A DNA stretch of 42,860 bases, taken from the NCBI GenBank assembly GCA_016791065.1, contig JAEUOD010000117.1:1-42860 (forward strand). Direction: 5' to 3'. This document shows positions 25,729 through 31,215 of the stretch, piece by piece. Within the stretch, counting starts at the first letter, position 1; every line of letters begins with the position of its first letter. The translations under genes and the position numbers were made by a program. Source of the stretch: Dechloromonas sp. GTDB lineage: Bacteria; Pseudomonadota; Gammaproteobacteria; Burkholderiales; Rhodocyclaceae. The notes beneath the pieces were generated by a model. That model was not told the DNA's origin, did no database searches, and was given only the letters and a program-made list of their open reading frames with translations.

Positions 25729-25749
25729 CCTGCGGCAAATTGCCGCAGG
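25729..25749. promoter_or_regulatory. Perfect 21-bp dyad upstream of regB, putative RegA site
   Basis: The 10-bp arms CCTGCGGCAA / TTGCCGCAGG flank a single A. The core GCGGC-N5-GCCGC differs by one base from the RegA/PrrA consensus GCGGC-N5-GTCGC (recalled). It shares 16 of 19 positions with the dyad at 30641-30659. Centre at 25739, 56 bp before the regB ATG. No T-run follows, so it is not a canonical terminator for the gene upstream. Confidence 0.6.
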
Positions 25750-25794
25750 GATGAGGCTGCGGAAAACCGGTACGGATCGCGGATAATCCGCCCC

Positions 25795-27054
25795 ATGCCG
25801 TTCACACCGACCACGCCGGAAAACAACGACCACCTCGCAAACCTGCGCCGCCTGATCGCCAGCCGCTGGGTGCTGCTCGCGGCCATGGCCCTGCTCGTCA
25901 TGATCGCGCCCGGCGCCCTCGATATCGCGCTGCCGCAATTGCCACTGCTCGGCATTCTGGTCGTCGCCGCCGTCTTCAACGTTTTGGCCCAATGGCAGGC
26001 AACGCGGGCGAGCAGCGCCAATTCGCACGAACTGCTCAGCCAGTTGCTGATCGACATCGTCACCCTGAGCGCCCTGGTTTTCTTCAGCGGCGGCGCCACC
26101 AATCCGGTCGTTTCCCTGCTGTTGCCGCCGGTCGCCGTGGCCGCGCTGACTTTGCCCGTACGTGGGGTGGCCATCGTCGGCGGTGCCGCGATTGCCGCCT
26201 ATTCGCTGCTCATGCTCTTCTACCTGCCGCTGCCCGTACCGGATGCGACGCGGGCCACCCGCCTGCACCTGATCGGCATGTGGCTCACCTTCGTCGTCTC
26301 GGCCATCCTCATCGCCTGGTTCGTCGTCCGCATGACCCGGATGATCCGCGAACGCGACGCGGAACTGGCCAGCGCCCGCGAGCAGGCCTTACGCGACGAG
26401 CGCGTGATGGCGATGGGTACGCTGGCGGCCGGAGCGGCCCACGAACTCGGCACACCGCTCGCCACCATGGCGCTGCTGACCGGCGAACTGGCCAACGATG
26501 CCGGGTTAACCGAAGAAGCACGTCAGGACATCGCCCTGCTCCGCCAGCAGATCGACGTCTGCAAGAGCATCATCACCGGCCTGTCGCGCCGGGCCGGCGC
26601 CGAGCGTCTCGAAAGCGCCCCGCTGCAGGCGGCCGATCGCTGGATCGACAACTTGCGCCAGCACTGGCATGCCGTCCGCCCGCAAAGCAGCAGCCAACTG
26701 GTCATCGATAGTCATGGAACAGTTCCCATGATGGTCGCCGACCCACGCCTCGAACAGGCGGTACTCAACCTGCTCAACAATGCTGCCAACGCCAGCAGCC
26801 AGCCGCTGGAGATCCGCCTCAGCTGGAGCAGCCGCGAGTTGTGCATCGATATCCGCGACCAGGGCCCCGGATTCCCGCCAGCCGTGCTCGAGCAGGGAGG
26901 CCAGAACAGCTTTCCGGCACATGCCCAGGGCAGTGGCGTCGGCCTGATGCTGACCCGCTCGGCCATCGAACAACTGGGCGGCAAGCTCAGCCTGATCAAC
27001 CCGGACGACGGCGGCGCCCTCGCCCGCATCGAAATCCCACGCTGCCCGCCATGA
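25795..27054 (+). CDS. regB: RegB/PrrB-type redox sensor histidine kinase
   Basis: A 419-aa inner-membrane kinase that senses quinone/redox state and phosphorylates RegA. Six hydrophobic segments (about 24-180) include the quinone-site heptapeptide, here GGATNPV (99-105) with V in place of the usual terminal F. The H-box AAGAAHELGTPLATM has H216. C256 (DVCKSII) matches the redox-active cysteine of RegB. The HATPase domain (about 310-419) has NLLNNAANAS and DQGPGFPP. The start overlaps nothing; the stop overlaps the regA start by 4 nt (ATGA). Confidence 0.93.
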   Translation: MPFTPTTPENNDHLANLRRLIASRWVLLAAMALLVMIAPGALDIALPQLPLLGILVVAAVFNVLAQWQATRASSANSHELLSQLLIDIVTLSALVFFSGGATNPVVSLLLPPVAVAALTLPVRGVAIVGGAAIAAYSLLMLFYLPLPVPDATRATRLHLIGMWLTFVVSAILIAWFVVRMTRMIRERDAELASAREQALRDERVMAMGTLAAGAAHELGTPLATMALLTGELANDAGLTEEARQDIALLRQQIDVCKSIITGLSRRAGAERLESAPLQAADRWIDNLRQHWHAVRPQSSSQLVIDSHGTVPMMVADPRLEQAVLNLLNNAANASSQPLEIRLSWSSRELCIDIRDQGPGFPPAVLEQGGQNSFPAHAQGSGVGLMLTRSAIEQLGGKLSLINPDDGGALARIEIPRCPP

Positions 27055-27581
27055 ACGACATCACCCTCGTCATCGACGACGACCCCAGCTTCAACGCCAT
27101 TCTGGTACGCACCCTGGAGCGTCGGGGCTTTCCGGCACGCGGCGCGCTCGATGCCGCCCAAGCCTTGATGCTGGCCCGCGAACTCCCCGCCCAACGCATC
27201 GTCCTCGACCTCAACCTCGCCGGCACCTCCGGCCTTCCCCTGATTCCGCAGCTTCTAGCCATCGATCCCGATTGCCGTATCGTCGTGCTGACCGGCTACG
27301 CCAGCATCGCCACCGCCGTCGACGCGGTCAAACTCGGCGCCATCCAGTACCTGGCCAAGCCAGTCGAAATCGAAGCCATCCTGGCCGCCTTTGCCGATGA
27401 TGGCCCGGACTTCGAGGTACCAGCCCCGGACGAACCGCTCTCGGTCGACCGACTGGAATGGGAGCACATCCAGCGCGTGCTCAACGAAAACGACGGCAAC
27501 ATCTCGGCCACGGCACGCGCCCTGAAGATGCATCGCCGCACCTTGCAGCGCAAATTGGCCAAGCGGCCGGTCAAAAGCTAA
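27051..27581 (+). CDS. regA: RegA/PrrA-type response regulator
   Basis: A 176-aa response regulator. The receiver domain (1-115) has DDD acid residues (9-11), phosphoacceptor D53 and K102; after a short linker, a Fis-type HTH (about 140-172, DGNISATARALKMHRRTLQRKL) closely matches the conserved RegA DNA-binding helix. It is coupled to regB by a 4-nt overlap. In proteobacteria this pair controls respiration, nitrogen and carbon fixation genes according to redox state. The gene end overlaps the antiporter end by 4 bp. Confidence 0.95.
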   Translation: MNDITLVIDDDPSFNAILVRTLERRGFPARGALDAAQALMLARELPAQRIVLDLNLAGTSGLPLIPQLLAIDPDCRIVVLTGYASIATAVDAVKLGAIQYLAKPVEIEAILAAFADDGPDFEVPAPDEPLSVDRLEWEHIQRVLNENDGNISATARALKMHRRTLQRKLAKRPVKS

Positions 27582-28840
27582 AGCAGCAGGAAAGCCGCAA
27601 TCGCCACGCAGGTCGGCGCCAGCGCTGCAAGGAACAGTCCGAGCGGGCTGACCGACTCGTCGACGAAACTCGATTTCAGGATGGCGACGCCGGCCGGATT
27701 GGGGGCATTGGCGATGATGGTCAGGCCGCCGCCGGTGACGGCACCGGCGACGATGGCGTACTTGAATTCGGCCGAGACGCCTTCGACCAGCGAGGCCAGG
27801 TAGGTCAAGGCAGCATTGTCGGTGATCGCCGTCAGGCCGGTGGCCAGGAAGAAGAGGACGCCAGGCTCGACGCCGAGCAGCGTCTGTTGCAGCCACCATT
27901 GCTGAAGGCCGCCCAGGACCACGAGCCCGCCCAGGAAAAACGCCACAAGCAAGCCTTCGCGCAGGATCAGTCGGTCCTGGTAGCGCTCGTAAGCCTCGGT
28001 ATAGCCCAGGAAGAAGAGAAAGAGGCCCATGAAGACGACCGGATGGTGGGCGAAGAGAACGACACCGACGAGAAAGGCCAGATGGATCGCGACGACCGTC
28101 ATCGGCATTCTGGCCTGCCCGTCGGCGACGACCGCCTGCTGACTGGCGGCCAGTTCGCGGCGGAACAGCAAAGTCAGCATGGCCGCGTTGAAAAATACGG
28201 CAGTGGCGGCCTTCCAGCCGAAGGTGGTGAGCATGAAGGCCGTCGTCCACTCCCATTTGGCGGCGACCATGAGTACCGGTGGCGCGCCGAAGCTGGTCAG
28301 GGTGCCGCCGATGGAAATATTGACGAAGAGCACGCCCAGCGTCGCGTATTTGAAGCGTTCGCTCTGCCCCTGCTGGAAATAGCGGTCGCGCAGCATCAGT
28401 GCGGCCAGGGTCATCGCCGCCGGTTCGGTGATGAAGGAACCGAGTAGCGGTACCAGCGAAAGGCAAAGGAAAAAGGTGGCAGCGCCGTTGGAAATGGGCA
28501 TCGCCGCAGCCAGCAGGCGAACGGCGGCAACGCCGAAATGCAGGATGGGTCGGCTGGCGGCAATCACCATGATGACGAAGACGAAGGCCGGCTCGGTGAA
28601 ATTGCGGCTTTCGACATAATCCACCGCATCGGTCTTGCCGGTCAGGAAAAAGAGCGCGGCGACCAGAATGAAGGCCCAGAAGCCGAAGACCACTTCGACT
28701 TCTGCCAGCATGTGCCACAGGCCGGCGTGCTTGCCTTCGCGATGCGCCAGATTGGCGAACAGCTTGGTCGAAAAGGTGTGCAGGACGGCGAGCGCAAAAA
28801 CGACAGCGGCGACAATTTCCGGGGGGCTGACTGAATCCAT
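27578..28840 (-). CDS. Putative Na+/H+ antiporter
   Basis: A 420-aa polytopic inner-membrane protein with about eleven hydrophobic segments. It resembles the Na_H_antiport_3-type family (segments ITEPAAMTLAALMLRDRYF, SIGGTLTSFGAPPVLMVA, and TGLTAITDNAALTYLASL, with a conserved Asp and Asn). Ion specificity is not proved by sequence. It is convergent with regA; the two stop codons overlap. Upstream is a palindrome-rich 140-bp region. Confidence 0.78.
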   Translation of the reverse strand: MDSVSPPEIVAAVVFALAVLHTFSTKLFANLAHREGKHAGLWHMLAEVEVVFGFWAFILVAALFFLTGKTDAVDYVESRNFTEPAFVFVIMVIAASRPILHFGVAAVRLLAAAMPISNGAATFFLCLSLVPLLGSFITEPAAMTLAALMLRDRYFQQGQSERFKYATLGVLFVNISIGGTLTSFGAPPVLMVAAKWEWTTAFMLTTFGWKAATAVFFNAAMLTLLFRRELAASQQAVVADGQARMPMTVVAIHLAFLVGVVLFAHHPVVFMGLFLFFLGYTEAYERYQDRLILREGLLVAFFLGGLVVLGGLQQWWLQQTLLGVEPGVLFFLATGLTAITDNAALTYLASLVEGVSAEFKYAIVAGAVTGGGLTIIANAPNPAGVAILKSSFVDESVSPLGLFLAALAPTCVAIAAFLLL

Positions 28841-28912
28841 GTAACGAACGATCGTGAAGTACAGGAGATCAGGTTAGCACAGCCGCCCGGGCGGCAAGGC
28901 TGGGGAAACCCC

Positions 28913-28966
28913 GTAGCCGGGACGGCCGTGGATTGGGCCGCCCGCAGCCCCGGCTACAGCCGGGGC
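28913..28966. repeat. Nested palindromes, REP-like
   Basis: An outer inverted repeat GTAGCCGGG (28913-28921) / CCCGGCTAC (28949-28957) overlaps an inner perfect hairpin GCCCCGGC-TACA-GCCGGGGC (28947-28966). The two structures are mutually exclusive. There is no T-run after either on the minus strand. The location between the antiporter start and the end of the copper operon fits an intergenic palindromic repeat or a factor-dependent terminator. Confidence 0.4.
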
Positions 28967-28981
28967 GGGGAAAGCATCGGC

Positions 28982-29449
28982 TCAGTGGCCCTTGTGCTCC
29001 ATCGGCGCGGGCGCGGCGGCCATCGGGCGGACCACCTTGGCATCGACCTGCTTGCTGCTGCCGTCGTCGAAGGTCAGGGTGATCGGCACGACATCCCCTT
29101 CCTTCATCGGTGCCTTGAGGTCGATCAGCATGACGTGCAGGCTGCCCGGCTTGAGCACCGCTTCACCCTTGGCCTTGATGTCGATCGCCGGTACCGGGCG
29201 CATCTTCATGACGCCGCCTTCGTTGAGGTGGGTGTGCAGTTCGGTGACCTTGGAGGCCGGGTTGTCGGCCTTGACGACCTTGATGTCCTTGTCGCCGTTG
29301 TTCTTGATCACCATGAAGGCACCGGTGGCCGGCGCATTGGGCGGCGCCAGGCGGACGTAGGGCTCGTTGACGGCGACCTGGTCGGCAGCGCCGGCAAAAA
29401 CGACGGACGAGAAAATCAGGCCAGCGGCCAACAGCGGGAGTTGCTTCAT
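28982..29449 (-). CDS. PCuAC periplasmic copper chaperone
   Basis: A 155-aa secreted protein (signal peptide about 1-21, cleavage near VFAGA-ADQ) of the PCu(A)C family that delivers Cu(I) to the CuA site of cytochrome oxidase together with Sco. The metal motif is present as GAFMVIKNNGDKD, then VTELHTHLNEGGVMKMRPV; the Met and His residues are the expected ligands. A His-containing tail MEHKGH closes the protein. It is last in the FixH-like/Sco/PCuAC cluster, 14 bp after the sco1 stop. Confidence 0.92.
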   Translation of the reverse strand: MKQLPLLAAGLIFSSVVFAGAADQVAVNEPYVRLAPPNAPATGAFMVIKNNGDKDIKVVKADNPASKVTELHTHLNEGGVMKMRPVPAIDIKAKGEAVLKPGSLHVMLIDLKAPMKEGDVVPITLTFDDGSSKQVDAKVVRPMAAAPAPMEHKGH

Positions 29450-29463
29450 GGGATGAGTCTCCA

Positions 29464-30066
29464 TCAGGGTTGAATCAAATGTTTGCGAATCTCGGCCGCC
29501 ACCTGCGCGGGCGGCGTGGCATGGGCGATCTTGCCGACCAGCCGGCCGTCCAGGCCGACCACGTAGGTATCGGCCGAGTGATCGACCACGTAGCCGCCGC
29601 CGGCCGTCTCGACCTTCTGGACAGCGTAGAAGACGCCATAGCGACGGGCGATGCCGGCGATGTTGTCCGGCGTACCGGTGACACCGACGATGCCCGGGTG
29701 AAAGAAGGCGACATACTCCTTGAGCCGGAGCGGCGTATCGCGCGGCGGATCGACCGAAACGAAGATCATCGCGACCTTGGCCTGCTCCTCCGGCGTCAGC
29801 AGGCGCAAACCGTCGCTGGTGGCAGCCAGCGAGGTCGGGCAGACATCGGGACAATAGGTGTAGCCAAAATAGACGAGGACGAGTTTGCCACGATAGTCGG
29901 CCAGCGAGACGTCGCCATCACTGGACTGCAGGGTGAAGTCGCCGCCGGGCGGCAGGGCGGCCGGCGGCAGCGGACGATCGCTGGCACCGGGCTGCCAGAA
30001 GAAGGCTAGGCCCAGCAGCAGGGCGACGAGGAGGCCGGCAATGGCAAGCAGGGAACGCTGCGACAT
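29464..30066 (-). CDS. Sco1/SenC copper-binding thioredoxin-fold protein
   Basis: A 200-aa protein with an N-terminal membrane anchor (about 4-22) and a periplasmic thioredoxin-like domain. Metal ligands are the CPDVC motif (FGYTYCPDVCPTS) and the distal His in VDHSADTYV. Sco proteins load copper and reduce the CuA subunit of cytochrome c oxidase. The ATG at 30066 is chosen because the longer frame would overlap the upstream gene. Four bp separate it from the FixH-like stop. Confidence 0.94.
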   Translation of the reverse strand: MSQRSLLAIAGLLVALLLGLAFFWQPGASDRPLPPAALPPGGDFTLQSSDGDVSLADYRGKLVLVYFGYTYCPDVCPTSLAATSDGLRLLTPEEQAKVAMIFVSVDPPRDTPLRLKEYVAFFHPGIVGVTGTPDNIAGIARRYGVFYAVQKVETAGGGYVVDHSADTYVVGLDGRLVGKIAHATPPAQVAAEIRKHLIQP

Positions 30067-30070
30067 GGGA

Positions 30071-30538
30071 TCAGTTGCTCCCCGAGGTGAAACGGAAAGG
30101 AATGGCGATGCGCTCATGACCGGTTTCGAGCAGCAAGGTCGCCTGCCAGACCATCTGCCCGGTGACGCAGACGGGCAAAACCGCTTCGGTCATGAAACGC
30201 CCTTCCCCCTTGGCAGCCAGCACGGGGCGGTTGTAGCCCATGCCCATCTCGACGCCGGCAAAGTCGATCTCGACGCGCGATGGCGAAACGCCGGTCGTCG
30301 CCACCAGGACCTCGAAGGGTTTGACCAGCGGGATCGGGTGCGTACCCATCGCCAGTTCGACCGAACCGCCGCCAGGCAGCCTGACGGCGCAGGCCTGGCG
30401 CTGCAGATCGCAGGTCGGATCGGGTTGCACGGTGATATCGGCCTTGGGCAGAAGCATCGGCGAGAGCTTGTAGCCGATCACGACGACCAGGCCGATCAGC
30501 AACACGCCGATTACATCAATCAGGATCTTTCTATTCAC
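30071..30538 (-). CDS. FixH/YtkA-like membrane-anchored periplasmic protein
   Basis: A 155-aa protein with one N-terminal transmembrane helix (about 7-27) and an Ig-like periplasmic domain. The motif EMGMGYNRP near residue 98 and LPVCVTGQMVWQATLLLE are characteristic of FixH/YtkA-type domains. Cys and Met residues there could bind copper. The start is a GTG at 30538, chosen because it makes the anchor N-terminal; an earlier ATG at 30595 gives an unlikely basic extension. It is first in the copper cluster, which suggests a role in oxidase assembly. Confidence 0.75.
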   Translation of the reverse strand: MNRKILIDVIGVLLIGLVVVIGYKLSPMLLPKADITVQPDPTCDLQRQACAVRLPGGGSVELAMGTHPIPLVKPFEVLVATTGVSPSRVEIDFAGVEMGMGYNRPVLAAKGEGRFMTEAVLPVCVTGQMVWQATLLLETGHERIAIPFRFTSGSN

Positions 30539-30587
30539 GAAATTTACTCGCCGCAGACTCTTGAGGAAGCGGATTGTCCTACAGAGA

Positions 30588-30628
30588 GCCGGCATGCGCT
30601 CAATACCCGGCCATTCTTTCATGCCGGC
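30588..30628. other. Inverted repeat in the FixH-like / TlpA-like divergent region
   Basis: GCCGGCATG (30588-30596) and CATGCCGGC (30620-30628) form 9-bp arms around a 23-nt loop, between the divergent starts at 30538 and 30721. It could be an operator or a leader hairpin of the minus-strand transcript. Confidence 0.35.
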
Positions 30629-30640
30629 CAGTGTTCGCCC

Positions 30641-30659
30641 CTGCGACATATTGCCGCAG
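30641..30659. promoter_or_regulatory. 19-bp dyad between the copper cluster and tlpA, putative RegA site
   Basis: CTGCGACATATTGCCGCAG; read on the minus strand its core is GCGGC-AATAT-GTCGC, an exact match to the RegA/PrrA consensus GCGGC-N5-GTCGC as I recall it. It agrees at 16 of 19 positions with the dyad upstream of regB (25730-25748). It lies between two divergent gene sets that both fit respiratory copper and thiol chemistry. Confidence 0.6.
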
Positions 30660-30720: not shown

Positions 30721-31215
30721 TTGAAAAAGCTCATTTCCATTCTGCTGCTGACGCTGCTCCCCGGCCTCGCCATGGCCACCGAACAGCCGGCATCCGCCCC
30801 CCTGTTTGCCGCTACGCTAAGCGACCTCGACGACAAGCCGGTCGCTCTGGCGAACTACCGCGGCAAACCGCTCGTCGTCAATTTCTGGGCTCGCTGGTGC
30901 GCGCCCTGCCGCGCCGAAATTCCCGAACTGAACGCCTTCCGCGACAGCCAGAAGGGGAAGATCGAGGTCCTCGGCATCGGCATTGAGGACAAGGCCGAAC
31001 CGGCGAAAGCCTTCGCCAAGACTTACGCGATCACCTACCCGGTTTTCGTTGCCAAGGAAAAGGGCATTCCGCTGATGCAGGCCCTCGGCAACACCAAGGG
31101 CGGCCTGCCCTTTACCCAGTTCATCGACCGCAACGGCAATATCGTCCACACCAAGCTCGGCCTGCTTAAAAAGGCCGATCTCGATGCCGCCGGCGACATG
31201 CTGCTCAAACGCTGA
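30721..31215 (+). CDS. TlpA/ResA-like thiol-disulfide oxidoreductase
   Basis: A 164-aa thioredoxin-fold protein with a signal peptide or anchor (KKLISILLLTLLPGLAMA) and the redox motif WCAPC in NFWARWCAPCRAEIPEL. It is exported and probably keeps thiols reduced, for example in CuA sites or cytochrome c maturation. The start is a TTG at 30721, which places the signal peptide at the terminus; a GTG at 30691 is the alternative, and neither has a clear Shine-Dalgarno sequence. It is divergent from the copper cluster. Confidence 0.82.
   Translation: MKKLISILLLTLLPGLAMATEQPASAPLFAATLSDLDDKPVALANYRGKPLVVNFWARWCAPCRAEIPELNAFRDSQKGKIEVLGIGIEDKAEPAKAFAKTYAITYPVFVAKEKGIPLMQALGNTKGGLPFTQFIDRNGNIVHTKLGLLKKADLDAAGDMLLKR

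Follow-up and report, generated by a model that had tools for sequence, protein, structure and literature searches.

RegA-family response regulators, known in alphaproteobacteria also as PrrA, ActR or RegR, have operators that are built as a GCG-type inverted repeat with a 5-nucleotide (nt) spacer. Two boxes of the same build, dyad A and dyad B, are present in a 42,860-nt contig of Dechloromonas sp. (JAEUOD010000117.1, positions 1 to 42,860; the whole of this stretch is called the window). Dyad A lies upstream of a gene like regB, which encodes the redox kinase partner of RegA, and dyad B upstream of an operon for the copper chaperones Sco and PCuAC. From sequence comparisons, we predict that A and B are RegA operator sites, with a probability of roughly 0.86.

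The regB/senC-regA locus of R. capsulatus is autoregulated. Its Sco-family gene senC is linked to RegBA, just as a Sco gene lies near regBA here; unlike in R. capsulatus, the Sco gene of the window shares an operon of its own with the genes for PCuAC and a membrane-anchored protein. This operon is some 2 kb away from regA and has its own box. The SenC-RegA promoter is named in a chromatin immunoprecipitation (ChIP) study of R. capsulatus (PMC5359404). The R. capsulatus sites are degenerate, with 4 of the 33 ChIP sites lying within one mismatch of GCGRC-N5-GYCGC; sites close to the box include cydA GTGACAATTTGTCCC and GCGTCAATATGGCGC, and cydA has a RegA ChIP peak (PMC5359404). The motifs quoted in PMC5506826 fit the GCG-type, 5-nt-spacer layout; PMC4263372 reports no strong PrrA motif, and the authors of PMC5506826 likewise found none. 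Because the published motifs are degenerate, RegA regulons are hard to predict. Unlike the alphaproteobacterial motifs, the box described here is a near-perfect 17-base-pair (bp) palindrome that occurs at few places per genome.

In the betaproteobacterial relative B. pseudomallei, where the RegAB regulon has been described through transcriptomes, the RegA homologue has a positive effect on nosZ, on cydAB and on a gene of the SCO1/SenC family, and no RegA box turned up in the available text under the terms motif, consensus and binding site (PMC8191878). In Bradyrhizobium, RegR has been seen to bind at the nosR promoter, and the genes under its control are those for nor, nos and copper homeostasis; the system is of the nosRZDFYLX type, and its putative boxes have different spacing and imperfect half-sites (PMC4064962). 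No RoxR box was found in the available part of PMC5436846, and a paper on Accumulibacter (Rhodocyclaceae in its wording) states that RegAB binding sites had not been identified there (PMC6446978). That regulators of the RegA family act on nos, cyd or Sco genes has already been reported elsewhere (PMC5359404, PMC8191878, PMC4064962); the operator described here is sharper, and the focus is on nitrous oxide (N2O) and copper. Within the texts available, the literature search brought up no paper that we recognised as defining a RegA box in Azonexus or Dechloromonas, or as tying RegA to clade II nosZ.

Two palindromes and their conservation in the genus

A first-pass annotation of the window described two dyads that agree at 16 of 19 positions, each a near-perfect inverted repeat, and this is confirmed in the sequence (Table 1). 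Dyad A reads CTGCGGCAAATTGCCGCAG, and dyad B reads CTGCGACATATTGCCGCAG on the plus strand and CTGCGGCAATATGTCGCAG on the minus strand, the two differing at three positions. When the sequence of A was searched at up to three mismatches, only A and B were matched in the window (four matches when both strands are counted), a number reached in none of 100 dinucleotide shuffles (mean 0.04). The pattern TGCGRC-N5-GYCGCA likewise occurs in the window only at A and B, where 0.05 matches are expected, and 0/100 shuffles reached two. The loose consensus GCGNC-N5-GNCGC showed no enrichment in the window (7 matches vs 7.3 expected) and is for that reason uninformative by itself at a G+C content (GC) of 62%. 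It was dropped as a scanner; TGCGNC-N5-GNCGCA gave 14 forward vs 25 reversed matches in the genome from which the window comes.

Conservation was assessed in 76 genomes of Azonexus and Dechloromonas, with matches below 55% (regB) and 48% (copper operon) identity left out and the box at regB sought within 300 nt upstream. A close regB was found in 72 of the 76 genomes. The box before it is exact in 62 of these and has one mismatch in 8, two in G052 and three in G031, giving 70/72 with at most one mismatch; in 67 of these 70 the distance from box to regB start is 61–79 nt. The first gene of the copper operon was also found in 72 of 76 genomes, and its box is exact in 64, with one mismatch in 6 and two in 2 (70/72 at one mismatch or fewer, 72/72 at two or fewer). 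By comparison, 57 of 5000 random 300-bp windows from the same loci reach one mismatch or fewer. The half-sites at regB carry 1.8 bits per column (n = 65) vs 0.3–0.4 in the flanks, and the mean pairwise identity of the regB box is 88% (n = 68) vs 33% in the left and 49% in the right flank. The dyads are thus kept in relatives at both loci.

The box is also found before nosZ. Matches to nosZ at E ≤ 0.001, some of them distant, were found in 64 of the 76 genomes, and the box at one mismatch or fewer is present in 65 of 72 nosZ upstream regions, counted as distinct regions; because many of these are at the same time the upstream region of a divergent copper operon, the nosZ and copper-operon counts are not independent. 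All 67 regions of the main nosZ group have the box at two mismatches or fewer, and none of the 5 regions of a second paralogue group (L232–L236) has it at one or fewer. Further nosZ copies carry the exact box in 15 of 15 regions fetched, one of which (L227) adjoins a second homologue of the first copper-operon gene. Fourteen of the 15 lie away from the copper operon, and thus the box accompanies nosZ when the gene is located elsewhere. The NosZ of one relative (L085), the sole protein scanned, scored 663 bits with TIGR04246 in its N-terminal 476-residue part, above the cut-off of 625, and by this representative the nosZ of the relatives is predicted to be of the Sec-dependent clade II type. 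No nosZ was found at E ≤ 0.001 in the genome of the window, which is 82% complete.

In relatives, a nosZ divergent from the copper operon (L085, L187–L231) carries the same box, whereas this place is taken by tlpA in the window. Of the 72 genomes, 49 have nosZ and 17 have tlpA as the divergent neighbour of the operon, and in 6 neither was found, so box B goes with the copper operon rather than with tlpA. The placement of B between the copper cluster and tlpA, as first described, is true of the window, but the usual divergent neighbour in the genus is nosZ. The copies of cydA were split by identity, after the results were seen, into 19 close and 9 more distant ones; 12 of the former and 3 of the latter have the box at one mismatch or fewer within 400 nt. 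Across the 76 genomes the strict pattern TGCGRCNAWTNGYCGCA has 186 sites, as opposed to 5 when it is reversed as a control; regB accounts for 55 of the 186, the copper operon for 43 and nosZ copies elsewhere for 14 (together 112).

RegA as the probable binder

Four lines of evidence agree on RegA: the location of the box before regB, a matrix from outside the genus, co-occurrence across the class, and a PrrA-like segment in the regA product. That product consists of a receiver and a Fis-type helix-turn-helix (HTH), and when the HTH is aligned with that of PrrA (1umq) the segment MHRRTLQR is identical. The matrix, built solely from the 33 sites in the R. capsulatus RegA ChIP table, ranks dyad B first and dyad A fourth of 42,846 window positions (PMC5359404). 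A RegA/PrrA consensus had been claimed for B and, with one base changed, for A; the published sites pick out both dyads, and bare GCGNC-N5-GNCGC is at chance level in the window.

The class sample comprised 231 genomes besides that of the window, which did not enter the Fisher test. The RegA+ set (75 genomes including that of the window) was cut at a score gap between 144.7 bits, the lowest kept, and 110.6 bits, the next, a cut-off picked after the list was seen. An exact box is present in 22/74 RegA+ vs 6/157 RegA− genomes (p = 8e-8); the reversed control is present in 6/74 vs 8/157 (p = 0.39). Where the box is on the same contig as regA, which applies to 10 RegA+ genomes excluding that of the window, it lies 1.31–1.44 kb upstream of regA in 8, which is the expected regB start. 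In a wider set, 80 regB loci were named, many of them from genus genomes already counted; among the 41 listed, the box before regB has one mismatch in Sulfurisoma and two in Sulfuritalea, and other Rhodocyclales have it as well. Loci with a RegB 35–41% identical (L306, L310, L311, L313, L316) have it at one mismatch, and L307, L314 and L315, among the same 41, have no box before regB.

The genus footprint, the outside matrix and the class co-occurrence together make both autoregulation of regBA and RegA control of copper delivery well supported as predictions. Autoregulation had been suggested in the first-pass annotation from the position of A upstream of the redox kinase gene, a position at which the predicted box is conserved in 70/72 genomes.

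A number of observations weigh against RegA as the binder or against a tidy set of targets. In the genome of the window (3.17 Mb), TGCGRCA-N3-TGYCGCA has four exact sites. Two are the dyads; the other two, which precede gspC and a Crp-family gene, have no clear respiratory role. A scatter of hits through coding DNA had been named as damaging: all four exact sites are intergenic by our open reading frame (ORF) calls, while 7 of 10 one-mismatch sites are inside ORFs. One of the three other one-mismatch sites lies about 300 nt before cydA and fits TGCGRC-N5-GYCGCA exactly; the second cydA copy of this genome has no box. At two mismatches there are 143 sites vs 93 for the reversed pattern, and when the centre of the box was loosened to A/T, 12 genomes gave 71 vs 19 reversed, a smaller excess than that of the strict pattern. 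In at least 11 genomes an exact site recurs inside the coding sequence of an alpha/beta-hydrolase and by its position is no operator. Across the class, 52 of 74 RegA+ genomes are without an exact box and 6 RegA− genomes have one. The scores of RegA and RegB are under the NCBI equivalog cut-offs, and the published RegA motifs are degenerate, with no strong motif in R. sphaeroides or At. ferrooxidans in the available parts of the two sources (PMC5506826, PMC4263372). In G031, regB and regA are on separate contigs and neither has a box upstream (L127, L128). The incomplete genomes G018, G060 and G065 are without regBA, and G018 and G065 keep the box. Finally, G034, rated 100% complete in 40 contigs, has no regB or regA match beyond generic kinases and regulators and no nosZ match, and its copper-operon box is exact (L166).

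This last genome speaks for the strongest rival, which we consider unlikely: that the box is the operator of another conserved regulator, responsive to copper, nitric oxide (NO) or redox state, and that RegBA is its target and not the binder. The richness of the targets in copper and N2O functions would suit such a regulator, as would the exact boxes of the 6/157 RegA− genomes, though the reversed control occurs in 8/157. Against such a regulator stand the class-wide co-occurrence with RegA and the boxes near regA, the choice of both dyads by a matrix from R. capsulatus RegA sites, and the box before regB in other genera too.

It is very improbable that A is the terminator hairpin of the ICMT-like gene and its likeness to B coincidental. 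Dyad A begins 5 nt past the stop codon of that gene and could form an 8-bp stem, but the reading was rejected, as the scan found no terminator-like site and relatives (L089, L098, L105) have the box before regB with a different, divergent gene on the other side; B moreover sits between divergent genes, and the box does not change its form between the three gene types that carry it. A last rival, that the palindromes arose by chance because the genome is GC-rich, could cite the chance frequency of the loose consensus, the one-mismatch sites inside ORFs and the recurrent coding site, but can be practically dismissed in view of the 0/100 shuffles, the near-constant positions over 72 genomes with diverged flanks and the 186 strict sites vs 5 reversed.

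Genes at the two sites and a possible mechanism

With RegA taken as the predicted binder, the genes at the two sites are collected in Table 1.

Table 1. Positions in the window of the two dyads and of the genes and elements around them
Feature	Position	Strand	Details
Dyad A, RegA-type box 5' of regB (predicted)	25730..25748		Core TGCGGCAAATTGCCGCA at 25731-25747; sequence, shuffles, genus conservation, matrix
GATAAT, −10-like element	25782..25787	+	7 nt 5' of regB ATG
regB-like redox histidine kinase	25795..27054	+	HisKA, HATPase_c
regA-like response regulator with Fis-type HTH	27051..27581	+	Response_reg, HTH_8
PCuAC copper chaperone	28982..29449	−	Pfam PF04314, E=1.8e-38
SCO1/SenC copper chaperone	29464..30066	−	Pfam PF02630, E=6.5e-40
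First copper-operon gene, membrane-anchored protein	30071..30541	−	Beta-rich predicted fold, conserved Cys, M-x-M motif
Dyad B, RegA-type box 5' of Sco/PCuAC operon, shared with divergent tlpA (predicted)	30641..30659		Core 30642-30658; between the starts of the membrane-anchored protein gene (−, 30541) and tlpA (+, 30721)
TlpA/ResA-like thioredoxin, divergent from copper operon	30721..31215	+	Redoxin, AhpC-TSA and thioredoxin Pfam matches

The best NCBIfam family of the regB product is NF033792 (ActS/PrrB/RegB kinase), at 235.6 bits under an equivalog cut-off of 350. For the regA product NF033791 (ActR/PrrA/RegA) is the best-scoring family of the list, at 172.2 bits under a cut-off of 250 that is exceeded in 0/232 class genomes. 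The quinone motif is defined as GGXXNPF (PMC8191878); in 12 RegB homologues Val or Leu stands in the place of Phe, giving GGATNPV/L or, in one of them, GGAANPL. H216 and C256 are invariant in 12/12 homologues and the HELGTPL H-box is present; C256 would be the equivalent of Cys-265.

The core of dyad A starts 64 nt 5' of the regB ATG. Scanning for consensus promoters gave no complete sigma-70 site; in 68/72 genus genomes NATAAT is present in the 22 nt that precede the ATG, and the GATAAT element of the window suggests a leaderless or near-leaderless regB transcript. If the transcript is leaderless, the centre of the box would fall near −55, an activator-like place. An element TTGAYNNNNATCA, which we take to be FNR-like, lies between box and regB start in 48/72 genomes (e.g. 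L031, L037) and is absent in the window.

The label FixH-like, given at first to the gene that begins the operon, was rejected: 0 of 17 homologues, scanned singly, match the FixH family in Pfam or NCBIfam (E ≤ 1), and the predicted fold has no Protein Data Bank (PDB) match at E ≤ 0.001. That fold is one N-terminal helix followed by beta strands, with a mean predicted local distance difference test (pLDDT) score of 83.8. The product has invariant Cys residues and an M-x-M motif, belongs to no known family and adjoins Sco/PCuAC; it is a candidate copper-handling protein.

RegB senses quinones, and this would be the redox input of the following proposal. On each palindrome a RegA dimer would bind through the Fis-type HTH, with one monomer per half-site. 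In 19/72 promoters of the copper operon a second box (at two mismatches or fewer) stands exactly 16 bp from the first, and the 18 other offsets that were tried gave none; this fits side-by-side dimers. At regB, RegA would set the level of RegBA by autoregulation. Transcription probably begins at the ATG or close to it, and the box centre would then be about 55 nt upstream of the start. At dyad B, RegA would switch copper delivery by Sco and PCuAC, according to redox state, jointly with the copper enzymes that need the copper: N2O reductase where it is present, otherwise oxidases. Either activation or repression could occur at each site.

The suggestion that RegBA controls oxidase copper assembly is supported as a prediction, but 'oxidase' is too narrow; with nosZ the usual divergent neighbour, it is better read as copper delivery for N2O reductase and/or oxidases. 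N2O is a greenhouse gas that is destroyed by the nosZ enzyme. We give an even chance to the broader picture that in Azonexus and Dechloromonas RegA has become a narrow-spectrum regulator, which recognises a sharp palindrome and has few core targets: its own genes, the operon for Sco and PCuAC, the clade II nosZ gene and, in some genomes, cydA. If this is right, RegBA would be the redox switch by which these N2O consumers tie their copper supply to the respiration of N2O. The regulon would be readable from sequence by means of the box, unlike with the degenerate alphaproteobacterial motifs. Clade II nosZ is present in many genomes of the genus, and here the strict box marks the core targets; a link from redox sensing to the copper chaperones and to the expression of N2O reductase can thereby be put to the test.

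Other sites of the box

Of the two further exact sites in the genome of the window (gene names by eye), one (TGCGACATAATGTCGCA, at L001:1501-1517 on C2) is about 100 nt before a GspC-like gene in a type II secretion cluster, and the other (L002:1501-1517, C12) precedes a regulator gene of the Crp family, behind which a tonB-like gene lies. As a conserved target, gspC of type II secretion was not upheld: the homologues are about 30% identical, and the box is present in 1 of the 7 gspC-like relatives compared. The hydrolase site, which occurs in the genome of the window as well as in the relatives, was rejected as an operator, lying as it does within coding sequence. It falls in the 3' part of the gene, over the codons of a CGHSP stretch (L010, L091, L097, L112, L100), and is a caution for pattern counts.

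In G031 the copper operon and nosZ keep the box at one mismatch; in G060 no copper-operon match was found. In G003 (C24), G005, G016 (C44), G024 (C14), G052 (C7), G057 (C19) and G064 (C17), a second cydA copy has another RegA- or RegB-like gene no more than a few kb away, and some upstream regions of these second cydA copies have boxes. In single relatives, the box is near a TonB receptor (best family a copper receptor, at 68.9 of 472 bits, far under the cut-off), near a region that encodes a P-type metal ATPase and, by eye, a protein like NosL, and near a second Sco-like gene (by eye).

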